A DNA stretch of 60,918 nt from assembly GCA_016871675.1 (NCBI GenBank), contig VHCN01000017.1:1-60918 (forward strand), in the 5' to 3' direction. Below the pieces are notes generated by a model. It ran no database searches. It saw only the letters and a list, made by a program, of their open reading frames with translations, and was not told where the DNA came from. Below are positions 47,388 through 58,445 of the stretch, piece by piece (position 1 is the first letter of the stretch; each line of letters starts with the position of its first letter). The translations under genes were made by a program, and so were the position numbers. The DNA is from Verrucomicrobiota bacterium. GTDB taxonomy: Bacteria > Verrucomicrobiota > Verrucomicrobiia > Limisphaerales > VHCN01.

Positions 47388-48782
47388 ATGCGCGACCGGG
47401 TGTTCCTCCTCGTGTCCGTCGTCCTCAACACGGTGCTCGCGTTTGTCCTCGTCGCCCACCACCTCGACTCGCGCCCGAAAGTCCGCCGCGTCACACGCAC
47501 CATCCGCACACCCACGACGGTCACGAACCTCGTCCGCACGAACATCACGCTCACCCAGTTGAACTTTGACTGGGCCAAGGTCGAGTCCGACGACTTCAGC
47601 GTCTACGTTCAAAACCTCCGTTTGATTGGATGCCCCGAGGAGACCATCCGCGACATCATCGTCGCGGACGTGGAGAAACTTTTCGCGGGCCGGCGCGCGC
47701 GGGAACTGCCCGACGAAGACATCGAGTGGTGGCGCGCCGATCCGCACGCCAGCCGAAACAAAGCTCGCGAGGAGCGCATGGCCGCGCTCGATGCCGAGCG
47801 TGACGAGTTGCTCACCCGCCTGCTCGGCGCGGGCTGGGCAAAGGCAGAACCGGAAGTCGACGCGGACAACTCGCTGCTGACCGGCCCCGTCCTCGGCGCG
47901 CTTCCAGCCGAGACGAAGAAGGCGATCGCGGAGATCGACGCGCGCGGCGCCAAACGGATCGCCGACCTGTATGCCGCCGCCGAGAGCGCCGGACGCGAGC
48001 CTGACGCCGGCGCGGAGGTTCGGATCAGGCGCGAGATGCGCGAGGAGTTCGCGCGGCTCCTCTCTCCGGCCCAGCTCGAGGAATATCTGGTGCGGAATTC
48101 AGCGAACGCGGACCGCATCCGCAGTGAACTCGGGTTCTTCGAACCGACACCCGATGAGTTTCGCTCCATCTTTCGCGCGAGCGACCCGTTCGACATCAAG
48201 ATTCAAGCGGACTACTCGGGCGACGATGCCATCAGCCGGCAGGCCCGCGCCCAACTGGAGCAACAGCGGGAAAACGCGCTCAAACAGGCGCTCGGACCGC
48301 AGCGCTACGAGGATTTCAAACTCAACCAGGATGCGGGCTACCGCGACGTGTTCGGCGCGCTCCAATCGGCGGGCGCCCCGGCGGAGTCCGCGCGCACCGT
48401 GCATCAGGTCAACCAAGCCACGCAGCAGGAGATCGAGCGCATCCGTGCGATGCAGAATCTCGGCGAGGAGCAGCGGCGCGCGTTGGTTGCCACCGCCGAG
48501 GCCGAGCGCGACCGCACGTTGAAGGGATTTCTGGGAGAGGAGACGTTTGGAAAGTTCACCGAACAGCGCCGAGTGATGACGGACACCGATTTCTTCACCC
48601 TGAACATGCCCTTCGATGCCAAGGGCCAGCCGCTCCGCGCGCGGGAGTGGATCATCAAGTCGCCCGCTGACGCGACCGTCCGCCGCGCACATGACGCCAC
48701 CCGGCTGATCAATGTCGAGGTGGGGCAACGCGTCTTCACCACCGAGCCGGGCTCGCAACCCGAGAAGAAAAAATCGCCGTGA
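47388..48782 (+). CDS. Membrane-anchored helical protein of unknown function
   Basis: From the ATG at 47388 the protein has 464 residues. One N-terminal membrane anchor (VFLLVSVVLNTVLAFVLVA) precedes an exported, largely helical domain rich in Glu, Arg and Ala. Notable blocks are LIGCPEETIRDIIVADVEKLF (about residues 80-100), LLSPAQLEEYLVRNS, FEPTPDEFRSIF and LGPQRYEDFKLNQDAGY. The repeated xPxQxxEY pattern is seen in periplasmic sensor proteins of this phylum, but I recognise no named family. The stop overlaps the GTG start of an exported esterase (GTGA), so the two are translationally coupled. Confidence 0.82.
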   Translation: MRDRVFLLVSVVLNTVLAFVLVAHHLDSRPKVRRVTRTIRTPTTVTNLVRTNITLTQLNFDWAKVESDDFSVYVQNLRLIGCPEETIRDIIVADVEKLFAGRRARELPDEDIEWWRADPHASRNKAREERMAALDAERDELLTRLLGAGWAKAEPEVDADNSLLTGPVLGALPAETKKAIAEIDARGAKRIADLYAAAESAGREPDAGAEVRIRREMREEFARLLSPAQLEEYLVRNSANADRIRSELGFFEPTPDEFRSIFRASDPFDIKIQADYSGDDAISRQARAQLEQQRENALKQALGPQRYEDFKLNQDAGYRDVFGALQSAGAPAESARTVHQVNQATQQEIERIRAMQNLGEEQRRALVATAEAERDRTLKGFLGEETFGKFTEQRRVMTDTDFFTLNMPFDAKGQPLRAREWIIKSPADATVRRAHDATRLINVEVGQRVFTTEPGSQPEKKKSP

Positions 48783-49909
48783 GCAGGGCGGTGATCCGAC
48801 GCATTTGCGGTGGCTTGGCCGCGGTCGGGGCGGTGGTTTCACTCGTTTCCGTGTTTCCAGCACGCGGCGCTGAATCGGCGTCCTCGAAGCTTGCGCCGTT
48901 CTTCACGCCACCCGCAGAGCTGGCAAACGGGTTCGGAGCGTTCAAGTCGCCGCTTGGCTTCAACGACGGCCGCACGGTGAGGTCCGCGGCCGACTGGCAG
49001 GAGCGGCGCCGGGAAATCCTGGCGGACTGGCACAGGCTCATGGGGCCGTGGCCGGCTCTGCTCGACAAGCCGCGCGTGGAAATCCTCGAATCGCGAGCGC
49101 GCGAGGATTTCACCCAGCATCGCGTCCGCGTGGAAGTCGCGGCGGGCCGGCTCGAACCGGGTTTCGTGCTCGTGCCACCGGGCAAGGGTCCGTTCCCGGC
49201 GGTGCTGGTGCCTTACTACAATCCCGAGACGAGCATCGGGCTCACGACGAATGGGCTGCGCGACTTCGCGCTGCAACTCACACGGCGCGGGTTCGTCACG
49301 CTCTCGATCGGTTCGCCCGGCGGCGACGCGCGGCGGCCCGACCCGGAGCGCCCGACATGGCAGCCCCTCTCCTTCCTCGGCTATGTCGCCGCCAACTGCC
49401 GCACTGCGCTCGCGCAACGCGGCGATGTGGACCCGCGCCGCATCGGCGTCGTCGGTCATTCCTACGGTGGCAAGTGGGCGATGTTCGCCTCGTGCCTGCA
49501 CGAAGGCTTCGCGTGCGCGGCGTGGTCCGACGGCGGCATCGTGTGGGACGAGAAGCGCCCGAACGTGAACTACTGGGAACCGTGGTATCTCGGGCGCGAT
49601 GCCTCGGCGACTCGCAAGCCGGGCGTGCCCACGGAGGCAAACCCGCGCACGGGAGCTTACAAGGAACTCGTCGCCACGGGGCGCGACCTGCACGAGTTGC
49701 ACGCGTTGATGGCGCCGCGACCGTTCCTCGTCTCGGGCGGCTCGGAAGACCCGCCGGAGCGGTGGCGCGCACTGAACCACTCGATCGCCGTGAACAAGCT
49801 GCTCGGCCACACGAATCGCGTCGCGATGACAAACCGGAGGACACATTCCCCGACGGAAGAATCCAACGAACAGATTTACCTGTTCTTCGAGCGGTTTCTG
49901 AAGCGATGA
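48779..49909 (+). CDS. Exported alpha/beta hydrolase (esterase-like)
   Basis: A GTG start at 48779 overlaps the preceding stop. The 376-residue protein has a signal peptide ending near ARGAES. The hydrolase core shows LVPYYNPETSIG, the nucleophile elbow VVGHSYGGKWAM with Ser228, and a probable catalytic His in RRTHSPTEESN near the C-terminus. It resembles exported acetyl-xylan or glucuronyl esterase-like proteins, but the substrate is unknown. Coupling to the membrane-anchored helical protein suggests joint expression. Confidence 0.85.
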   Translation: MSRAVIRRICGGLAAVGAVVSLVSVFPARGAESASSKLAPFFTPPAELANGFGAFKSPLGFNDGRTVRSAADWQERRREILADWHRLMGPWPALLDKPRVEILESRAREDFTQHRVRVEVAAGRLEPGFVLVPPGKGPFPAVLVPYYNPETSIGLTTNGLRDFALQLTRRGFVTLSIGSPGGDARRPDPERPTWQPLSFLGYVAANCRTALAQRGDVDPRRIGVVGHSYGGKWAMFASCLHEGFACAAWSDGGIVWDEKRPNVNYWEPWYLGRDASATRKPGVPTEANPRTGAYKELVATGRDLHELHALMAPRPFLVSGGSEDPPERWRALNHSIAVNKLLGHTNRVAMTNRRTHSPTEESNEQIYLFFERFLKR

Positions 49910-49920
49910 GCCGCCGCGGG

Positions 49921-50673
49921 CTACGGTTTTCCCTGGCCGAGTCGGCTCAGCTTCGCACGAGCCTGAGAATTGCCCTGCGCTGCGGATTGCTTGAGCCAGT
50001 ATTCGGCGATGTTCGCGTCCTTCTCAACGCCATCGCCGGTGAGATAACGAACGCCGAGGTCGTATTGCGCCGTGTCGGAGCCTTTCGCCGCCCGGTCCAT
50101 CTGCGACGCGACGACTTTGCTGCGGGTCTCTTCGGGGGTCTGGGTTCGCGGCGGTGTCGAAGTCGAGGTGCCCTGGGTTGGAGTGGAACGGCTGGCCGTG
50201 CTGGCTGCGCCGGACTTTTTGGCCATCGCCTTTTCCGCGTCGGTCAACGGCGCGGCGGTGAGCGGCGCGTCCTTCCCGCCGATGCCGGTGAGCGAGTAAA
50301 TGAAGTTCAGGTCGTCCTCCGATTCCCACTTCTTGTCCGGCCCGGCGGACTTGATTTCGAAACCGTTCTTGTCGCGCCTCGCCGCGATCCGATAATCGGT
50401 TCCCCACATGTCTTTGGACTTGTCGCGCGTCTCGCGGCCGCCCTTCTCCATCATGTTCTCCTTGAGGAACTGGCTGAAATTGTTGAGCGGCAGCGTGGCG
50501 CTGTCGGCGTATTCCATCGCGACGGCGTCGGCGATGCCCTGCATCTCGATGCCCGCAGTGGCGGCGCTCTGGACCTTGGTGATCACGTCGAGCGATTGGG
50601 CGAGCGAGTCCTTGTTCACGTAGCCCACGATGCCGAGCGCGGCGACGGGCAGGAGTTTGAGCAGCGCGCTCAT
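49921..50673 (-). CDS. Pseudopilin-like (GspG C-domain) protein with Sel1 repeat
   Basis: This 250-residue protein has an N-terminal hydrophobic segment (LLKLLPVAALGIVGYV), but no GFTLIE prepilin-peptidase site. A segment with DMWGTDYRIAARRDKNGF and SAGPDKKWESEDDL matches the C-terminal domain of the GspG major pseudopilin. A Ser/Thr/Pro linker (about 150-180) leads to one Sel1 repeat (AQYDLGVRYLTGDGVEKD, EYWLKQSAAQGNS). Its ATG overlaps the stop of the M50/cNMP gene (ATGA), so translation is coupled. No other type II secretion gene is close. It probably acts as an anchored adaptor rather than a pilus subunit (inference). Confidence 0.82.
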   Translation of the reverse strand: MSALLKLLPVAALGIVGYVNKDSLAQSLDVITKVQSAATAGIEMQGIADAVAMEYADSATLPLNNFSQFLKENMMEKGGRETRDKSKDMWGTDYRIAARRDKNGFEIKSAGPDKKWESEDDLNFIYSLTGIGGKDAPLTAAPLTDAEKAMAKKSGAASTASRSTPTQGTSTSTPPRTQTPEETRSKVVASQMDRAAKGSDTAQYDLGVRYLTGDGVEKDANIAEYWLKQSAAQGNSQARAKLSRLGQGKP

Positions 50674-52610
50674 GACGCGGTCGCCGTGAGGCGCTGGTCG
50701 AGGACGTTTTCGAGCGTGAGGCCGGTGACGAAATCCTGGCTGACGAGCCGGAGGAAATCCTCCTTGCCGAGACGGAGGCAGCGGCCTGCGCCGACGGCGG
50801 TGACCTGCGCGCTGGCGGGCTGGTTGCGCAAGAGGCTGATCTCGCCGCAGAAGTCACCGGGGCCGAGCGTGCGCTTGTGCTGGCCTTGCACGCGCACCTC
50901 GAACTGCCCCTCGTGCACGAGCCAGAAGGAGTCGTTGGCCTTGTTCTCCTCGATCACCCGGTCGCCGGGCTTGAAATCGCGAAACGTGAAGGCGCTCGAC
51001 GCGCGGAGCAGCGGCTGCGGATGCCACTCGGCGAAGAGCGGGTTGCGACGCAGAAACGCGCACACCTGCACCGCGTCGCGAATGGTCTTCGTGCCGAGCG
51101 CAGACACGAGCAACCGGTCGAAATCGGCGCGCGTGAGCGCGAAGAGCTGCGTCGCCTCGACCGCCTTCACCGACCGCGTGCGCGGGAGGTTCTCGAGCAA
51201 CGCGACCTCCCCAAAGACATCGCCCGTGCCGAGATTGGCGACAAACATCTGATCGCCGGCCTCGGTTTCCTTGAGCACCTCGACGCGCCCGGAATACACC
51301 ACGAACATGGCCTCGCCGCGATCGCGCTCGCGGATGACCATGGTGCCGGCCTCCACCGTGAGAAACTTCATCGAAGCCGCGACCTGCCTGAGGTCATCGG
51401 GCGGAAGTTGCCCGAGAAGGAGCGTGGAGCCGAGAAAACGGACAACCTCGCTTTCCACCGGACGCGCCATTCCCGCGGGCCGCTCGTGCGCGGCTCGCTC
51501 GGCGGCCATCAGGCTCGGTGCCGCCAGGCGCCACAACCCGCGCGCGAGGATCCACGCGACGTAGAGCACCGGCAGCATCACCACCGCGGCCAGCAGCGCG
51601 AAACCCACCAACGAAAGCCACCGCGTGGCCTCGCCGACTTCGTTCGTGAAAAGCGAACTGAGCACGCCCTCCTGCGCCTGCAGCCGTCGCGCCCCGTATT
51701 GATACACCGCGCCGAGCCAGAGGATCGCGTAGGTGCTGTAGACCAGAAAATACTTCTCCTCCACGAGCTGGTCCTTCCAGTTGAAGATCTGGGCAACGAG
51801 TTTCCGGCTGAGGAATCGCGCGGCGCATTTCGGCAGTTGATAGTCCTTGCGGAGCAGCGCGTGCAGCAGCGCATGCGCGGGCGTGTCCCCGAACGGACAC
51901 GCGAGCACCACCGCGGCGAGACCGCTCGCGAGCAATCCGGTCGGCGACTGGATCAGCGCGGCGACCATCGCGAGCAGGAACGGCGCGCTGAGCGCACGAA
52001 ACGCGACGCACAATTCGCAGATGCGCCCGCCCATGAACGCATCCCGCAAGTCCACCGCGAAAAACGGCAGTCCCCGGTCGAACCGGATGCGCAATCCGCC
52101 GACGAGCCGGCCGAAGTTGCAGAGCACACAGCCGGCAAGCGCGTTCGCAAGGCTCAGGCCGAGAGCCACCCAGAACGCGACCGCAAGCCAGCCGTCGGGC
52201 ATGGTGCCGGTGACGAGCGACGACGACGCCATCACGCCGCAGCCCGCCAGGATCATGGCGAGCGAGAGCCCGATCGAAAGTCCCGGGCGGATTCGCGCGC
52301 CGGCTTGCTTGAGAAACATCACCGTCTGCGTCGGTTCCGCGGTGTCGGAGATGAAGCCCTTCAAGTGCGCGGCGAGGACGAGGTCGTAGAACCCGCGCAC
52401 GCGCACGGGCGGGTCGAGCTGGAGCAGACCGTGGAGCACCTCCTGCACGGAGCGCTTGCCGTCAAACTGGTCGAGCGAGCGCTGCTGCTCGGCGTCGAGC
52501 GCGAGGTATTCGCCGCGCGTGGTCTGCTTGAGCAGGCGCGTGCCGCCAGGCAGGTGGCGCGTCTCGATGGCCGACGACAGCCGGAAAACTCTCGAGTTGA
52601 GTGCCAGCAT
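50670..52610 (-). CDS. Catalytically dead M50-like membrane protein with two cNMP-binding domains
   Basis: From the ATG at 52610 (another at 52661) the product has 646 residues. It has a PqqD-like N-terminal domain (LLKQTTRGEYLALDAEQQ, then LLQLDPPVRV) and about six membrane segments. The membrane part aligns by eye with the PqqD-associated M50 peptidases, but the HExxH position reads SLANALAGC. The NPxxxxDGYY position reads CPFGDTPAHALLHALL, so neither zinc motif remains. Two cyclic-nucleotide-binding domains follow. The first has GEVALLENLPRTRSVKA with the phosphate-binding Arg; the second reads GEISLLRNQPASAQVTA and lacks it. The gene is divergent from clpC. I infer a membrane sensor or scaffold. 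Confidence 0.8.
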   Translation of the reverse strand: MLALNSRVFRLSSAIETRHLPGGTRLLKQTTRGEYLALDAEQQRSLDQFDGKRSVQEVLHGLLQLDPPVRVRGFYDLVLAAHLKGFISDTAEPTQTVMFLKQAGARIRPGLSIGLSLAMILAGCGVMASSSLVTGTMPDGWLAVAFWVALGLSLANALAGCVLCNFGRLVGGLRIRFDRGLPFFAVDLRDAFMGGRICELCVAFRALSAPFLLAMVAALIQSPTGLLASGLAAVVLACPFGDTPAHALLHALLRKDYQLPKCAARFLSRKLVAQIFNWKDQLVEEKYFLVYSTYAILWLGAVYQYGARRLQAQEGVLSSLFTNEVGEATRWLSLVGFALLAAVVMLPVLYVAWILARGLWRLAAPSLMAAERAAHERPAGMARPVESEVVRFLGSTLLLGQLPPDDLRQVAASMKFLTVEAGTMVIRERDRGEAMFVVYSGRVEVLKETEAGDQMFVANLGTGDVFGEVALLENLPRTRSVKAVEATQLFALTRADFDRLLVSALGTKTIRDAVQVCAFLRRNPLFAEWHPQPLLRASSAFTFRDFKPGDRVIEENKANDSFWLVHEGQFEVRVQGQHKRTLGPGDFCGEISLLRNQPASAQVTAVGAGRCLRLGKEDFLRLVSQDFVTGLTLENVLDQRLTATAS

Positions 52611-52858
52611 GGGTTCTTCGAAAGCTGCCGGGAGTGAAGCAGCAAGACGCGCCCGCGGCAAGTTTCAATTCCGGGACGAGGCCGCGAACATTGCGGCGAA
52701 ATTCGTTTTGCAACTTCGCGGTTCGGAATTACTCTCCACGCGTCGGTCGGCGGTGACTCCTCGAAGCGGTGAAGCGGGTTCCGCTTCTTCGCGTCAGATT
52801 TCCGACCCCGCAGCCGCGACGCTGCGTTGCAACCGCCGACCGCAACACTCTCGATGTT

Positions 52859-55381
52859 ATGAGCGAAGAAGCCATGAGCAACTTCACCCCCCGCGCGCAG
52901 CAGGTGCTTGCCCTCGCGCGCAAGGAGGCGGACCGCTTCAACCACAACTTTGTCGGCACGGAGCATCTCCTGCTCGGACTCATCAAGCTCGGCCAGGGCG
53001 TCGCCGTGAACGTCCTCCAGAAGATGGGCCTTGACCTCGAGACCGTCCGCATGGAGGTCGAGAAGCAGGTCGGCACCGGGCCGGACCAGAAGCAGGTCGG
53101 CAACATTCCCTACACACCCCGCGTGAAAAAGGTGCTCGCCCTCTCCTCCAAGGAAGCCAAGGCGCTCAACCACACTTACGTCGGCACGGAGCACATCCTG
53201 CTTGGCCTGTTGCGCGAGGGCGACGGCGTCGCGGCGCGCGTGTTGAAGAGCCTCGACGTGGACATTGAGCAGACGCGCCAGGAAATCCTGAAGGAGCTCG
53301 ACCCGAACTTCGGCGCCTCCGAGGAACAGCCCGCCGGCGAGGGCACGCCCGAGCCCAAGAGCGAGAAGCCCGCCGGCGAGGGCAAGAAGTCCGAGCAGAA
53401 GACGCCCGCGTTGAAGGCCTTCGGCCGCGACCTCACGGAGATCGCGCGCAAGGGCGAGATGGACCCCGTCATCGGCCGCAAGAACGAGATCGAGCGCGTC
53501 ATCCAGATTCTCTGCCGCCGCACGAAGAACAATCCCGTGCTGCTTGGCGAGGCCGGCGTCGGCAAGACCGCCATCGTCGAGGGCCTTGCGCAGGAGGTCG
53601 CCAAGGGCAACGTGCCGGAATTGCTGCGCGAGAAGCGCGTGATCACCCTCGACCTCGCCCTCATGGTCGCCGGGACGAAGTATCGCGGCCAGTTCGAGGA
53701 GCGCATCAAGGCGGTGATGGATGAAATCCGCCGGAACAAGAACGTCATCCTGTTCATCGACGAGCTGCACACGATCGTCGGCGCAGGCTCGGCCGAGGGC
53801 ACGATGGACGCCAGCAACATCATCAAGCCCGCCTTGAGCCGCGGCGAACTCCAGTGCATCGGCGCCACGACGCTCAACGAATACCGAAAATACATCGAGA
53901 AGGACGCCGCGCTCGAACGCCGCTTCCAGTCCGTCAAAGTCGAGGCTCCGTCCATCGACGAGGCCATCCTCATCCTTCGCGGGCTTCGCGGGAAATACGA
54001 GGACCACCACAAGGCCGAGTTCACCGATCTCGCGATCGAGTCCGCGGTGAAGCTGTCCGACCGCTACATCACCGGGCGCTTCCTGCCTGACAAGGCGATC
54101 GACGTGATGGATGAAGCCGGCGCGCGCGCGCGCATCAACGCGATGACGCGCCCGCCCGATGTGAAAGCCCTCGAGACGGAGATCGAGGAACTCAAGACCC
54201 GCAAGGAGCGCTCGATCAAGGACCAGGACTTCGAGGGCGCGGCGAACTTCCGCGACAAGGAAAAGCAGTCCAAGGAACGCCTCGATGCCGTCATGGCCGA
54301 GTGGCGCACCGCCCGCGAGGAAAAGCGCGTGAAGGTGGACGAGGACGACATCCTGCAAATCGTCTCCAAGTGGACCGGCGTGCCGCTCAAGCGCATGGAG
54401 CGCGACGAAATCAAGCGGCTCCTCGACATGGAACTCGAGCTCTCAAAGGCCATCGTCGGCCAGCAGGAAGCCGTCACCGCGTTGTGCAAGGCGCTGCGCC
54501 GCTCGCGCGCCGACCTCAAGGACCCCAAGCGGCCCATCGGCACGTTCGCCCTGCTCGGGCCGACCGGCGTGGGCAAGACGCTTGTGGCCAAGACGCTCGC
54601 CGAGTTCATGTTTGGCGACCCCAAGTCGCTCGTGCAGCTCGACATGAGCGAATACATGGAGAAGTTCACCGTGTCGCGGCTCGTCGGTTCGCCGCCGGGC
54701 TACGTGGGCTTCGAGGAAGGCGGCCAGCTCACCGAGCAGGTGCGGCGCCGGCCGTATTCCGTCATCCTCTTCGACGAAATCGAAAAGGCGCATCCCGACG
54801 TGATGAACATGCTCCTTCAGATTCTCGAGGAGGGCAAACTCACCGACAGCCAGGGGCGCGTGGTGGACTTCCGCAACACCATCGTGCTGCTCACCTCGAA
54901 CGTGGGCGCCGAGGCCATGCGCAAGGGCGCGGGCATCGGCTTCACCTCGCAGAAGGAACAGGACACCTACGACCGGATGCGCGACAAGATTCTCGACGAG
55001 GCCAAGAAGGCGTTCCGGCCCGAGTTCCTCAACCGGCTCGACGACGTCATCGTGTTCCGCTCGCTCACCAAGCCCGACCTCATCAAGATTCTCGACCTCG
55101 AAGTCGCCAAGGTGCTGGGCAGGCTCAAGTCCAAGAACATCCGCCTCGACCTCGACGAAAAGGCGCGCGATTTCCTGGTGGAGAAAGGCTTTGACCCGGT
55201 TTACGGCGCGCGGCCGATGCGGCGCTCGGTCGAGAAATACCTCGAAGACCCGCTCGCCGAGGAACTCCTGCGCGGCAACATCCACGATGGCGAGCCGGTA
55301 AGCGTCACGACCACCGGGGACAAGCTGACCTTCTCGCAGGCGAAAGCCGCGGCGGAAGGCGCGGTCGCATCAAGCCAGTGA
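52859..55381 (+). CDS. clpC: ATP-dependent Clp protease ATPase subunit ClpC
   Basis: This 840-residue protein starts at the ATG at 52859 ([20 protein letters not shown]). It has two N-terminal Clp repeats ([30 protein letters not shown]). D1 has Walker [10 protein letters not shown] and Walker B LFIDELH. A short middle domain contains a UVR-like segment ([16 protein letters not shown]). D2 has GPTGVGKT and [13 protein letters not shown]. The ClpP-binding loop region is present after D2 Walker B (GIGF). It unfolds proteins for ClpP. No ctsR or mcsAB is adjacent. Confidence 0.96.
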
Positions 55382-56033: not shown

Positions 56034-58445
56034 ATGCTGTCCCAACATCCCCGACCCGTGTTCACCGCCATCCTCACCGCCACCCTCGCCCTCGCGGCCC
56101 CGGTTGCGCGCGCCGCCGACCTTCCCATCGTGGCCGACGTCGAGTGGCAGCCGTTCGCCGCGCAAGCCCGCCGGCTCATCGAGGCCACGGACTATCTTGG
56201 CTCGCCGTTTAGTGACGCCGACAAGGCCGCGCTGAACACCGCGCTCGCCGCCACCGACACTGCCGCCGCCGTCGAGAAGATCCAGACCGTGCTCGACCGT
56301 TACGCGCTCTACGGCGTGCACATCAATCCCGAGATGCGCGTGAAGGTCGCGCAGGGCGCCGCGAAGCCCGAGCTCGTCGAACAAGGCTGGCGGCAATTCC
56401 TGGTCAAGGTCGCCAACGAATCCGGCACCACCGCCCCGCTCCGCGGCGCAAGCCCGAACGCGCAGCGCCTCTTCAACTCCCCGCAAGCCGACGTCGCCAG
56501 CCGCTGGCTCGATTTGCAGATGTTCGACGCCCAGCCGCTGCGCCCGACCCTCAGCGGTCTCAAGGTCGAGTATCGCATCCTCCAGCTCTACAGCCGCGAC
56601 GCCGGCAAGCGCGAGGCCCGCATCAACTTCAACGTCGGCCAGGGCACGCAGGACATCGGCTTCCGCAACGAGGCCGACACGCTCTTCGACTGCAAGCCCG
56701 CGCGCAACATCGTCTTCGACGTGAAGGACGAGAACGGCAAGCCCACCACCGCGAGCTTCATCATCCGCGACGCGCAGGGCCGCGTGCATCCGTCGCAAGC
56801 CAAGCGCCTCGCGCCGGACTTTGCGTTCCATCCGCAGGTCTATCGCGCCGACGGCGAAGTCATGAAGCTCCCCGTCGGCCAATACACCGTCGAATTCCAG
56901 CGCGGCCCCGAGTCGCTCGTGCGCCGCTATCCCATGGCCGTGAAGAACGACACCGTGCGCTGGACCTTCAAAGTCGAGCGATGGGTCGACCCCGCCAAGC
57001 TCGGCTGGATTTCCGGCGACCACCACATCCACGCCGCCGGCTGCGCGCACTACACCAATCCCACCGAGGGCGTCCACGCGCCCGACATGATGCGCCACAT
57101 CCTCGGCGAAGATTTGAAAGTCGGCGCGAACCTCACGTGGGGCCCGTGCTTCGACTACCAGAAACAATTCTTCACCGGCAAAGACGACAAGGTCTCGCAG
57201 CATCCCTACATCCTGCGCTACGACGTCGAGGTCAGCGGCTTCGGCTCGCACCAGAGCGGGCACCTCTGCCTGCTGCGGCTCAAAGAGCAGATGTATCCCG
57301 GCGGCGACTCGAAAAACCACTGGCCCACCCTCGGCCTCAACACCCTCCGCTGGGCCAAGAAACAGGGCGCGCTCGTCGGCCCCGCCCACTCCGGCTGGGG
57401 CCTGGAGACCCGCGCGCCCGCGGCCGGACGCGACGCCGCGCCCCTCAACAGCAAGACCTCCGGCGCCGCCGCCGGCATGAGCGCCGAACTGCCCACCCTC
57501 ATCATGCCGCCCTTCAACGGCATCGGCGCCAACGAATACATCATGAACGTCACCCACACGGTGCCCGGCCCCGACGGCAAGCTCGTCCCCGCCGTGGACT
57601 TCCTCTCCATGGTGGACACCCCCTACGTGTGGGAACTCAACATCTGGTATCACACCCTCAACGTCGGCTTCCGCACCCGCATCAGCGGCGAGACCGACTT
57701 CCCCTGCATCTACGGCGAAAAAGTCGGCCTCGGCCGCAGCTACGTGAAACTGCCCGCCAAATGGACCTACGAAGACTGGTGCGAAGGCATCCGCGCCGGC
57801 CGCAACTACGTCAGCGACGGCAAGAGCCACATCATGGAAATGAAACTCAACAACACCGCCCTCGGCGAGAACGGCAGCGAAGTCAAACTCGCCGCGCCCG
57901 GCAACGTGCGCATCACCGCGAAAATCGCCGGCTACCTCAACCCCCAGCCCGACCCCACCATGAAAGGCCGGCCCTACCAGCAGAAACCCTACTGGGACAT
58001 CGAGCGCGCCCGCATCGGCGACACCCGCCAAGTCCCCGTCGAACTCCTCGTCAACAGCCTGCCCGTCGCCACACAGAACCTCCTGGCCGACGGCGCGACC
58101 CGCGACATGACCTTCGACGTGAAAATCGACCGCAGCAGTTGGGTCGCCCTGCGCGTCCTGCCCTCCTCGCACAGCAACCCCATCTGGGTGACCGTCGGCA
58201 ACAAACCCGTGCGCGCCTCCCAGAAGAGCGCCGAGTGGTGCCTCAAAGCCGTGGACGTGTGCTGGCAGCAAAAAGAACGCACCTACCGGGCCGACGAGAA
58301 GGAGCAAGCCGCCAAGGACTACGAACACGCCCGCCAGAGCTACCAGCGCCTCGTGCAAGAAAGCGCCGACGCCCCCGACGCCCGCGCCGACGCCGCGCCG
58401 GACAACCCGCAGCGCCGCGCGGTTCAGGCAGCAGGCTCGAAGTGA
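56034..58445 (+). CDS. Exported CehA/McbA-family metallohydrolase (PHP-like)
   Basis: This 803-residue protein has a signal peptide ending VARAA. After an N-terminal beta-rich region comes the metal-binding start of the CehA/McbA domain, LGWISGDHHIHAAGC (about residues 323-337, GDHHIH at 328-333). VGPAHSGWG and GRNYVSDGKSHIMEM then supply further PHP-type positions. The family includes carbaryl and other ester hydrolases and many uncharacterised exported enzymes. Length and the N-terminal domain match long verrucomicrobial/planctomycete members. The substrate is unknown. It is followed by degenerate sequence. Confidence 0.87.
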   Translation: MLSQHPRPVFTAILTATLALAAPVARAADLPIVADVEWQPFAAQARRLIEATDYLGSPFSDADKAALNTALAATDTAAAVEKIQTVLDRYALYGVHINPEMRVKVAQGAAKPELVEQGWRQFLVKVANESGTTAPLRGASPNAQRLFNSPQADVASRWLDLQMFDAQPLRPTLSGLKVEYRILQLYSRDAGKREARINFNVGQGTQDIGFRNEADTLFDCKPARNIVFDVKDENGKPTTASFIIRDAQGRVHPSQAKRLAPDFAFHPQVYRADGEVMKLPVGQYTVEFQRGPESLVRRYPMAVKNDTVRWTFKVERWVDPAKLGWISGDHHIHAAGCAHYTNPTEGVHAPDMMRHILGEDLKVGANLTWGPCFDYQKQFFTGKDDKVSQHPYILRYDVEVSGFGSHQSGHLCLLRLKEQMYPGGDSKNHWPTLGLNTLRWAKKQGALVGPAHSGWGLETRAPAAGRDAAPLNSKTSGAAAGMSAELPTLIMPPFNGIGANEYIMNVTHTVPGPDGKLVPAVDFLSMVDTPYVWELNIWYHTLNVGFRTRISGETDFPCIYGEKVGLGRSYVKLPAKWTYEDWCEGIRAGRNYVSDGKSHIMEMKLNNTALGENGSEVKLAAPGNVRITAKIAGYLNPQPDPTMKGRPYQQKPYWDIERARIGDTRQVPVELLVNSLPVATQNLLADGATRDMTFDVKIDRSSWVALRVLPSSHSNPIWVTVGNKPVRASQKSAEWCLKAVDVCWQQKERTYRADEKEQAAKDYEHARQSYQRLVQESADAPDARADAAPDNPQRRAVQAAGSK

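Follow-up and report, generated by a model that had tools for sequence, protein, structure and literature searches.

A conserved pseudoprotease related to PqqD-M50 membrane proteases, fused to two CNB domains and co-encoded with a GspG-like protein, suggests a signalling pair of recycled parts in Verrucomicrobiota

Described systems related to the component parts

The gene pair considered here, whose products we term P1 and P2, is made of parts of known kinds. Like the PqqD-M50 proteases (for example, those of loci L121, L122 and L128 to L138), P1 has a PqqD-like N-terminus followed by an M50-type core; however, it lacks both the HExxH motif and the Asp of the NPxxxxDG motif and ends in two cyclic-nucleotide-binding (CNB) domains, whereas the C-terminus of the PqqD-M50 proteases is HlyD-like as judged by eye from the sequences. 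A CNB domain, which might have marked a PqqD-M50-CNB intermediate, was seen in none of 44 intact M50 relatives, a sample drawn from Verrucomicrobiota at loci that may cut the far C-terminus.

Among relatives of the site-2 proteases (S2P), the plant protein EGY3 has been termed the only pseudoenzyme homologous to this family (PMC9355673). EGY3 and P1 are both S2P homologues and membrane proteins that are conserved though predicted to be inactive (PMC9355673). They differ in setting, with EGY3 belonging to the plant chloroplast. EGY3 is not known to have a CNB domain or to be coupled to a partner gene. A working analogy is offered by the iRhoms, which are likewise conserved inactive relatives of intramembrane proteases and act in regulation (PMC3149277), but which have the rhomboid serine-protease fold, no CNB domains and no homology to P1. 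While pseudoproteases are established regulators among the rhomboids, for the M50/S2P group the EGY3 study names EGY3 alone (PMC9355673).

The tandem CNB arrangement of P1 recalls the regulatory subunits of PKA and PKG, from which P1 differs in being a membrane protein, in having no kinase and in the loss of the Arg from the cassette of the second CNB domain (CNB2). The PKA-R of trypanosomes also has an altered cassette (PMC10959531), and its likeness to the changes in CNB2 is a possible parallel at most. P2, in turn, shares with the major pseudopilin GspG/PulG the C-terminal motif DxWGxxYxL...SxGPDxxxxxxDD, but it has no prepilin peptidase site, carries an extra Sel1 repeat and is encoded with P1 instead of with secretion genes. 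A literature search for PqqD-M50 or M50-CNB fusions did not find the architecture of P1 described, and the combination of these parts, together with a bacterial pseudo-S2P family, appears to be new.

The gene pair and its surroundings

The window, i.e., the whole stretch of 60,918 nucleotides that was analyzed (contig VHCN01000017.1 of a Verrucomicrobiota bacterium), encodes the pair on its minus strand:

50670..52610, minus strand: P1 gene, encoding a PqqD-like region, an M50-like pseudoprotease membrane domain and two CNB domains (646 aa)
49921..50673, minus strand: P2 gene, encoding a transmembrane (TM) helix, a GspG-like domain and a Sel1 repeat (250 aa)
50670..50673, minus strand: ATGA overlap of the P1 stop and the P2 start (4 bases), with a -4 offset shared by nearly all orthologues

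The frame of P1 opens with the ATG at 52610, a start common to the aligned orthologues, and closes with the stop at 50670-50672; that of P2 extends from the ATG at 50673 to the stop at 49921. These coordinates were re-derived and agree with the two frames overlapping by ATGA that the original prediction had reported. In the genome as a whole, P1 is present in a single copy. Upstream of P1 lies a divergent ClpC-like gene (within 52769-55381, plus strand) and downstream of P2 a convergent alpha/beta-hydrolase gene (48779-49909), and the pair is isolated from these neighbors. A neighborhood comparison found that the ClpC-like gene is not common to other P1-P2 loci and that no further gene is conserved in the wider, differing flanks, synteny being limited to P1 and P2. 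A promoter scan of the minus strand upstream of P1 gave no sigma-70-like site. Elsewhere in the window, positions 56034-58445 hold an 803-aa open frame with no Pfam match at an E-value of 1e-4 or better.

Distribution of P1 and its pairing with P2

Related loci were detected with an alignment as the query (24 loci), whereas P1 as a single protein retrieved none. With 19 P1 orthologues at 44-52% identity, dN/dS well below 1 and the 4-base overlap recurring in nearly all, the arrangement exceeds what chance would give. P1 is encoded in 20 of 196 genomes of the order, with P2 directly downstream in 19 of these (in the exception, G111, the contig ends behind P1) and P2 in none of the 176 genomes devoid of P1, although these counts are not phylogenetically independent. 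Six more genomes outside the order have P1 with an adjacent P2. The tight pairing of the two genes is therefore well supported, and the survey of gene pairs in related genomes that had been suggested along with the original prediction bears out their coupling within the order. It does not extend to a sister clade, in which 17 genomes encode P1 and none of them encodes P2. Consistent with this, a single branch of the P1 tree (SH-aLRT 100, in a tree made by a quick method and with some long branches) separates P2-bearing from P2-less versions. Since P1 occurs without P2 in this large sister clade, P2 cannot be the sole possible output of P1.

Three further observations were made on these loci. 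A genome lacking P1 has a weak partial match to P2, a GspG-like domain, within a 1711-aa open frame (G070:C136:7750-7929). In a genome without P2, a 451-aa Sel1-repeat protein is encoded 25 bases after P1 (L094:4309-5664, minus strand), which may reflect P1 and Sel1 repeats having been paired independently. Finally, Limisphaerales-like P1-P2 loci occur in public records whose titles name Klebsiella pneumoniae or Akkermansia muciniphila (L096, L101, L103, L114 and L118), titles that look like those of mislabelled metagenome-assembled genomes.

The CNB domains of P1

The C-terminal part of P1 comprises two CNB domains:

51096..51458, minus strand: CNB1, P1 residues 385-505 (Pfam; VIA-align Z 18-19 to CNB domains of PKG/PKA; cassette alignment)
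50727..51092, minus strand: CNB2, P1 residues 507-628 (Pfam; VIA-align Z 19)

Pfam recovers cNMP_binding in two stretches of P1 (E 4e-41); its sole other match, a cupin below threshold, overlies the second stretch. The fold (PF00027) is present in all 24 members of the family alignment A3, and the closest matches of the pair in both sequence and structure are the tandem domains of PKA/PKG regulatory subunits. The phosphate-binding cassette of CNB1, FGEVALLENLPRTRSV, is canonical, retaining E468 and R477; across the family it reads FGEVALLxxxPRT, with the Arg missing in only a few distant rows. In contrast, the cassette of CNB2, CGEISLLRNQPASAQV, retains G589/E590 but has A599 in place of the Arg and so lacks the Glu-Arg combination. 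A599 is invariant in A3, and no row of the P1 homologue alignment has an Arg here, the position being held by Ala or a similar small residue. The claim that only the first domain has the phosphate-binding Arg holds for P1 of the window and matches the pattern of the family. CNB1 is a candidate binding site for cAMP or cGMP. CNB2, in turn, may serve structurally as a partner domain or have a different ligand; an example of CNB domains with a changed ligand is the PKA-R of trypanosomes, to which nucleosides bind instead of cAMP (PMC10959531).

With regard to ligand supply, class III cyclase genes were found in 19/19 P1 genomes tested, with a median of 8, as against 2 in 19 P1-less genomes (Mann-Whitney p 1.5e-6; per megabase, p 2.8e-6). 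Because the P1-less set was hand-picked and kinship, which confounds the comparison, was uncontrolled, this abundance is only suggestive of a supply of ligand for P1. A search of a plasmid collection returned CNB-domain matches only.

P2: an N-terminal helix, a GspG-like domain and a Sel1 repeat

Three elements make up the P2 of the window:

50614..50664, minus strand: single hydrophobic helix, P2 residues 4-20 (hydropathy, alignment), with P9 and N20 nearly invariant
50299..50559, minus strand: GspG-like domain, P2 residues 39-125, with a DxWG and a calcium-loop-like SAGPDxxxxxxDD motif
49969..50070, minus strand: one Sel1 repeat, P2 residues 202-235 (Pfam, 39 bits against a cut-off of 30.7)

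The Pfam T2SSG model matches 15 of the 23 P2 members, the member in the window scoring below the Pfam cut-off (E 0.0025; 18.3 against 21 bits). When a profile of P2 orthologues was compared with GspG/PulG of the PDB, they aligned at E 3e-4 via the DxWGxxYxL...SxGPDxxxxxxDD loop, which identifies a GspG C-terminal domain in P2. In true GspG the residues of this loop bind calcium. The predicted structure of P2 is consistent with this assignment, with VIA-align placing 3g20 (GspG) at a middling Z of 7.1 over 93 residues; Foldseek with the same model returned mostly Sel1 proteins with weak E-values. The N-terminus, MSALLKLLPVAALGIV, has no G|FxxxE prepilin cleavage site, nor does any other aligned P2 N-terminus. 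Hence, a GspG-like domain without a prepilin cleavage site, as proposed in the original prediction, is confirmed by the orthologue profile and the aligned N-termini. The Sel1 repeat that it also listed is present in the window but is above the cut-off in 17 of 23 members, and it is missing from P2 of L078, L079, L080, L083, L098 and L119; the constant core of P2 is accordingly the helix and the GspG-like domain. At one locus a further gene about 1.1 kb past P2 encodes a second GspG-like protein, of 189 aa (L077:10311-10880; E 1.8e-14 with the P2 profile).

Proposed function of the pair

The overlapping pair, conserved in Verrucomicrobiota, suggests a signalling pair built from recycled parts. 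Against the computed background of its architecture, zinc-motif loss, selection, tight linkage, canonical CNB1 and degenerate CNB2, we infer ligand binding, direct contact of P1 with P2, a membrane topology, a direction of signalling and an output. Specifically, we propose, with a probability of about 0.5, that P1 is a cyclic-nucleotide-responsive pseudo-S2P acting as a membrane receptor or scaffold that holds P2 by its helix and signals outward. On binding cAMP or cGMP, CNB1 would induce a conformational change in the CNB pair, to be passed on to the membrane bundle of P1. This bundle may have kept an S2P-like grip on a single-pass helix, in this case the one at the N-terminus of P2, without cutting it. 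P2 would then convey the state to the far side of the membrane by way of its GspG-like domain and, in the present lineage, might also relay it through the Sel1 repeat to a bound envelope partner. The nearly invariant Pro in the P2 helix would fit an S2P-type client. A more specific version, in which CNB1, when occupied, makes the dead core tighten on or let go of the helix of a dedicated, single-pass GspG-like client, so that P1 would be a cyclic-nucleotide-gated holder sending a second-messenger signal outward, is put forward only tentatively.

The strongest competitor, which we nevertheless regard as unlikely, is that the pair forms a static membrane scaffold, in which the CNB domains are ligand-free dimerization modules and P1 anchors P2 and the partners of its Sel1 repeat. 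The dead catalytic site, the loss of the CNB2 Arg in every homologue and the role of Sel1 as a protein-binding repeat would all suit such a scaffold. Two observations speak against it: nearly all homologues, however deeply diverged, have kept the Glu and the Arg of CNB1, and class III cyclases are numerous in the host genomes.

It is also conceivable, though with still poorer odds, that P1 is a cyclic-nucleotide-dependent regulator of type II secretion or of the type IV pilus, with P2 as a docking subunit resembling a minor pseudopilin. While the GspG-type domain of P2, with its calcium-loop-like motif, invites this comparison, the aligned P2 proteins have no prepilin cleavage motif, P2 tracks P1, and no gene except P2 is conserved beside P1. 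Improbable, too, and somewhat more so, is a retained role in export or peptide handling of the kind supposed for the PqqD-M50-HlyD-type proteins, whereby the PqqD-like region would bind a peptide that the bundle moves or holds under regulation by a cyclic nucleotide. The PqqD-like N-terminus is indeed the strongest link to those proteins; however, their C-terminal part is gone from P1, nor does the neighborhood of P1 contain a conserved peptide or transporter gene.

With respect to the receptor reading that we prefer, the original prediction of a signalling or scaffolding pair made from repurposed protease and secretion parts stands as to the pairing and the origin of the parts, and as to function such a pair is what P1 and P2 would plausibly form. 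P1 defines a conserved, selected, bacterial and CNB-fused family with one partner constantly co-encoded in one large clade, and the pair, with only two genes, is a simple system in which to test how a dead intramembrane protease can act as a receptor. It also bears on the role of cyclic nucleotides in Verrucomicrobiota, the examined genomes being rich in class III cyclases.

Origin of the N-terminal and membrane regions of P1

The proposal above draws on the descent of the following regions of P1:

52326..52610, minus strand: PqqD-like winged-helix region, P1 residues 1-95 (hhalign against PqqD-M50 proteases over their PqqD part: 90.8%, E 1.2e-6)
51516..52298, minus strand: M50-like membrane domain, P1 residues 105-365, with about six TM helices (hhalign, hydropathy, charges, model)

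Hydropathy gives about six TM helices, the fifth being weak. Positive charges lie in the loops of P1 expected to be cytosolic, which would place the PqqD-like part as well as the CNB domains on the inside; an N-in/C-in topology with both parts cytosolic is therefore most likely on the basis of charge. An AlphaFold model of P1 built with 24 sequences (mean pLDDT 75, pTM 0.49, with the membrane region only moderately confident) predicts the helices, with a short strand hairpin separating TM2 from TM3, and the two CNB domains.

Single-sequence scans with Pfam and NCBIfam of P1 and of 29 N-terminal regions gave no M50 match and no PF02163 at an E-value of 1 or better, and TIGR03859 (PqqD) gave weak matches in 2 of 29 family members, so that P1 has neither the PF02163 nor the PqqD model above cut-off. 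Profile-profile comparison, on the other hand, placed the PqqD-like and membrane domains in the PqqD-M50 lineage: against PqqD-M50 proteases of the same phylum, hhalign gave 97.4% (E 3.6e-11) with a first set and 97.5% (E 5.2e-12) with 34 P1 and 44 intact PqqD-M50 sequences, with reversed and column-shuffled controls at or below 2.6%. The two families are collinear across about 290-356 columns, from the PqqD-like N-terminus through the membrane core. Because pairwise hhalign E-values lack a database calibration, reciprocal ranking in a pool of open reading frames from all fetched loci served as a second test; there, the top non-self matches of the M50 profile were P1 proteins and those of the P1 profile were M50 proteins, both with weak E-values.

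One could argue that only the PqqD-like N-terminus is shared and that the membrane domain has no M50 origin, as the lack of a Pfam M50 match and the 11% obtained for the membrane part alone with the first, shallow alignments might suggest. Deeper alignments resolved this low figure, raising it to 80.9% (E 1.2e-5) against controls of at most 1.1%, and, with motifs collinear along the whole length and reciprocal top ranks, a separate origin becomes very improbable. For the full P1 model, the Foldseek and VIA-align lists were filled by CNB-containing matches, with no M50 chain among them, which says nothing against M50 ancestry. Taken together, the sequence comparisons support P1 as an inherited relative of PqqD-type M50 (site-2-protease-like) membrane proteases. 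The M50-type layout claimed in the original prediction was thus recovered by profile searches, the very comparison in which a lack of similarity would have spoken against it, though in the absence of a Pfam or NCBIfam match.

Loss of the catalytic motifs

The profile alignment locates what has replaced the two zinc motifs:

52134..52148, minus strand: ANALA, P1 residues 155-159, at the HExxH position (aligned with HEFGH)
51876..51899, minus strand: CPFGDTPA, P1 residues 238-245, at the NPLLRFDG position, with the metal-ligand Asp replaced by P244

P1 thus has neither the HExxH nor the NPxxxxDG with a metal-ligand Asp of an active M50 or site-2 protease, in line with the loss of both motifs noted at the outset. 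At the NPxxxxDG position the P2-bearing clade has PFGxxxAH. HExxH is absent from all 44 P1 homologues, at identities down to about 16-20% and including one from another class, whereas the intact M50 relatives have HExxH in 44/44 and NPxxxxDG in 43/44. Since the motif is missing from close and distant homologues alike, its loss is ancestral to the P1 family. The missing zinc motifs could also be taken as signs of decay, making P1 a defunct copy of a protease that is active and intact in close orthologues, but this reading is ruled out by the conserved motif loss (0/44 with HExxH) and by purifying selection, dN/dS in close pairs being far below 1. By these sequence criteria P1 is an inherited, catalytically dead pseudoprotease, with dN/dS in close pairs of about 0.06-0.23 for P1 and about 0.08-0.35 for P2.
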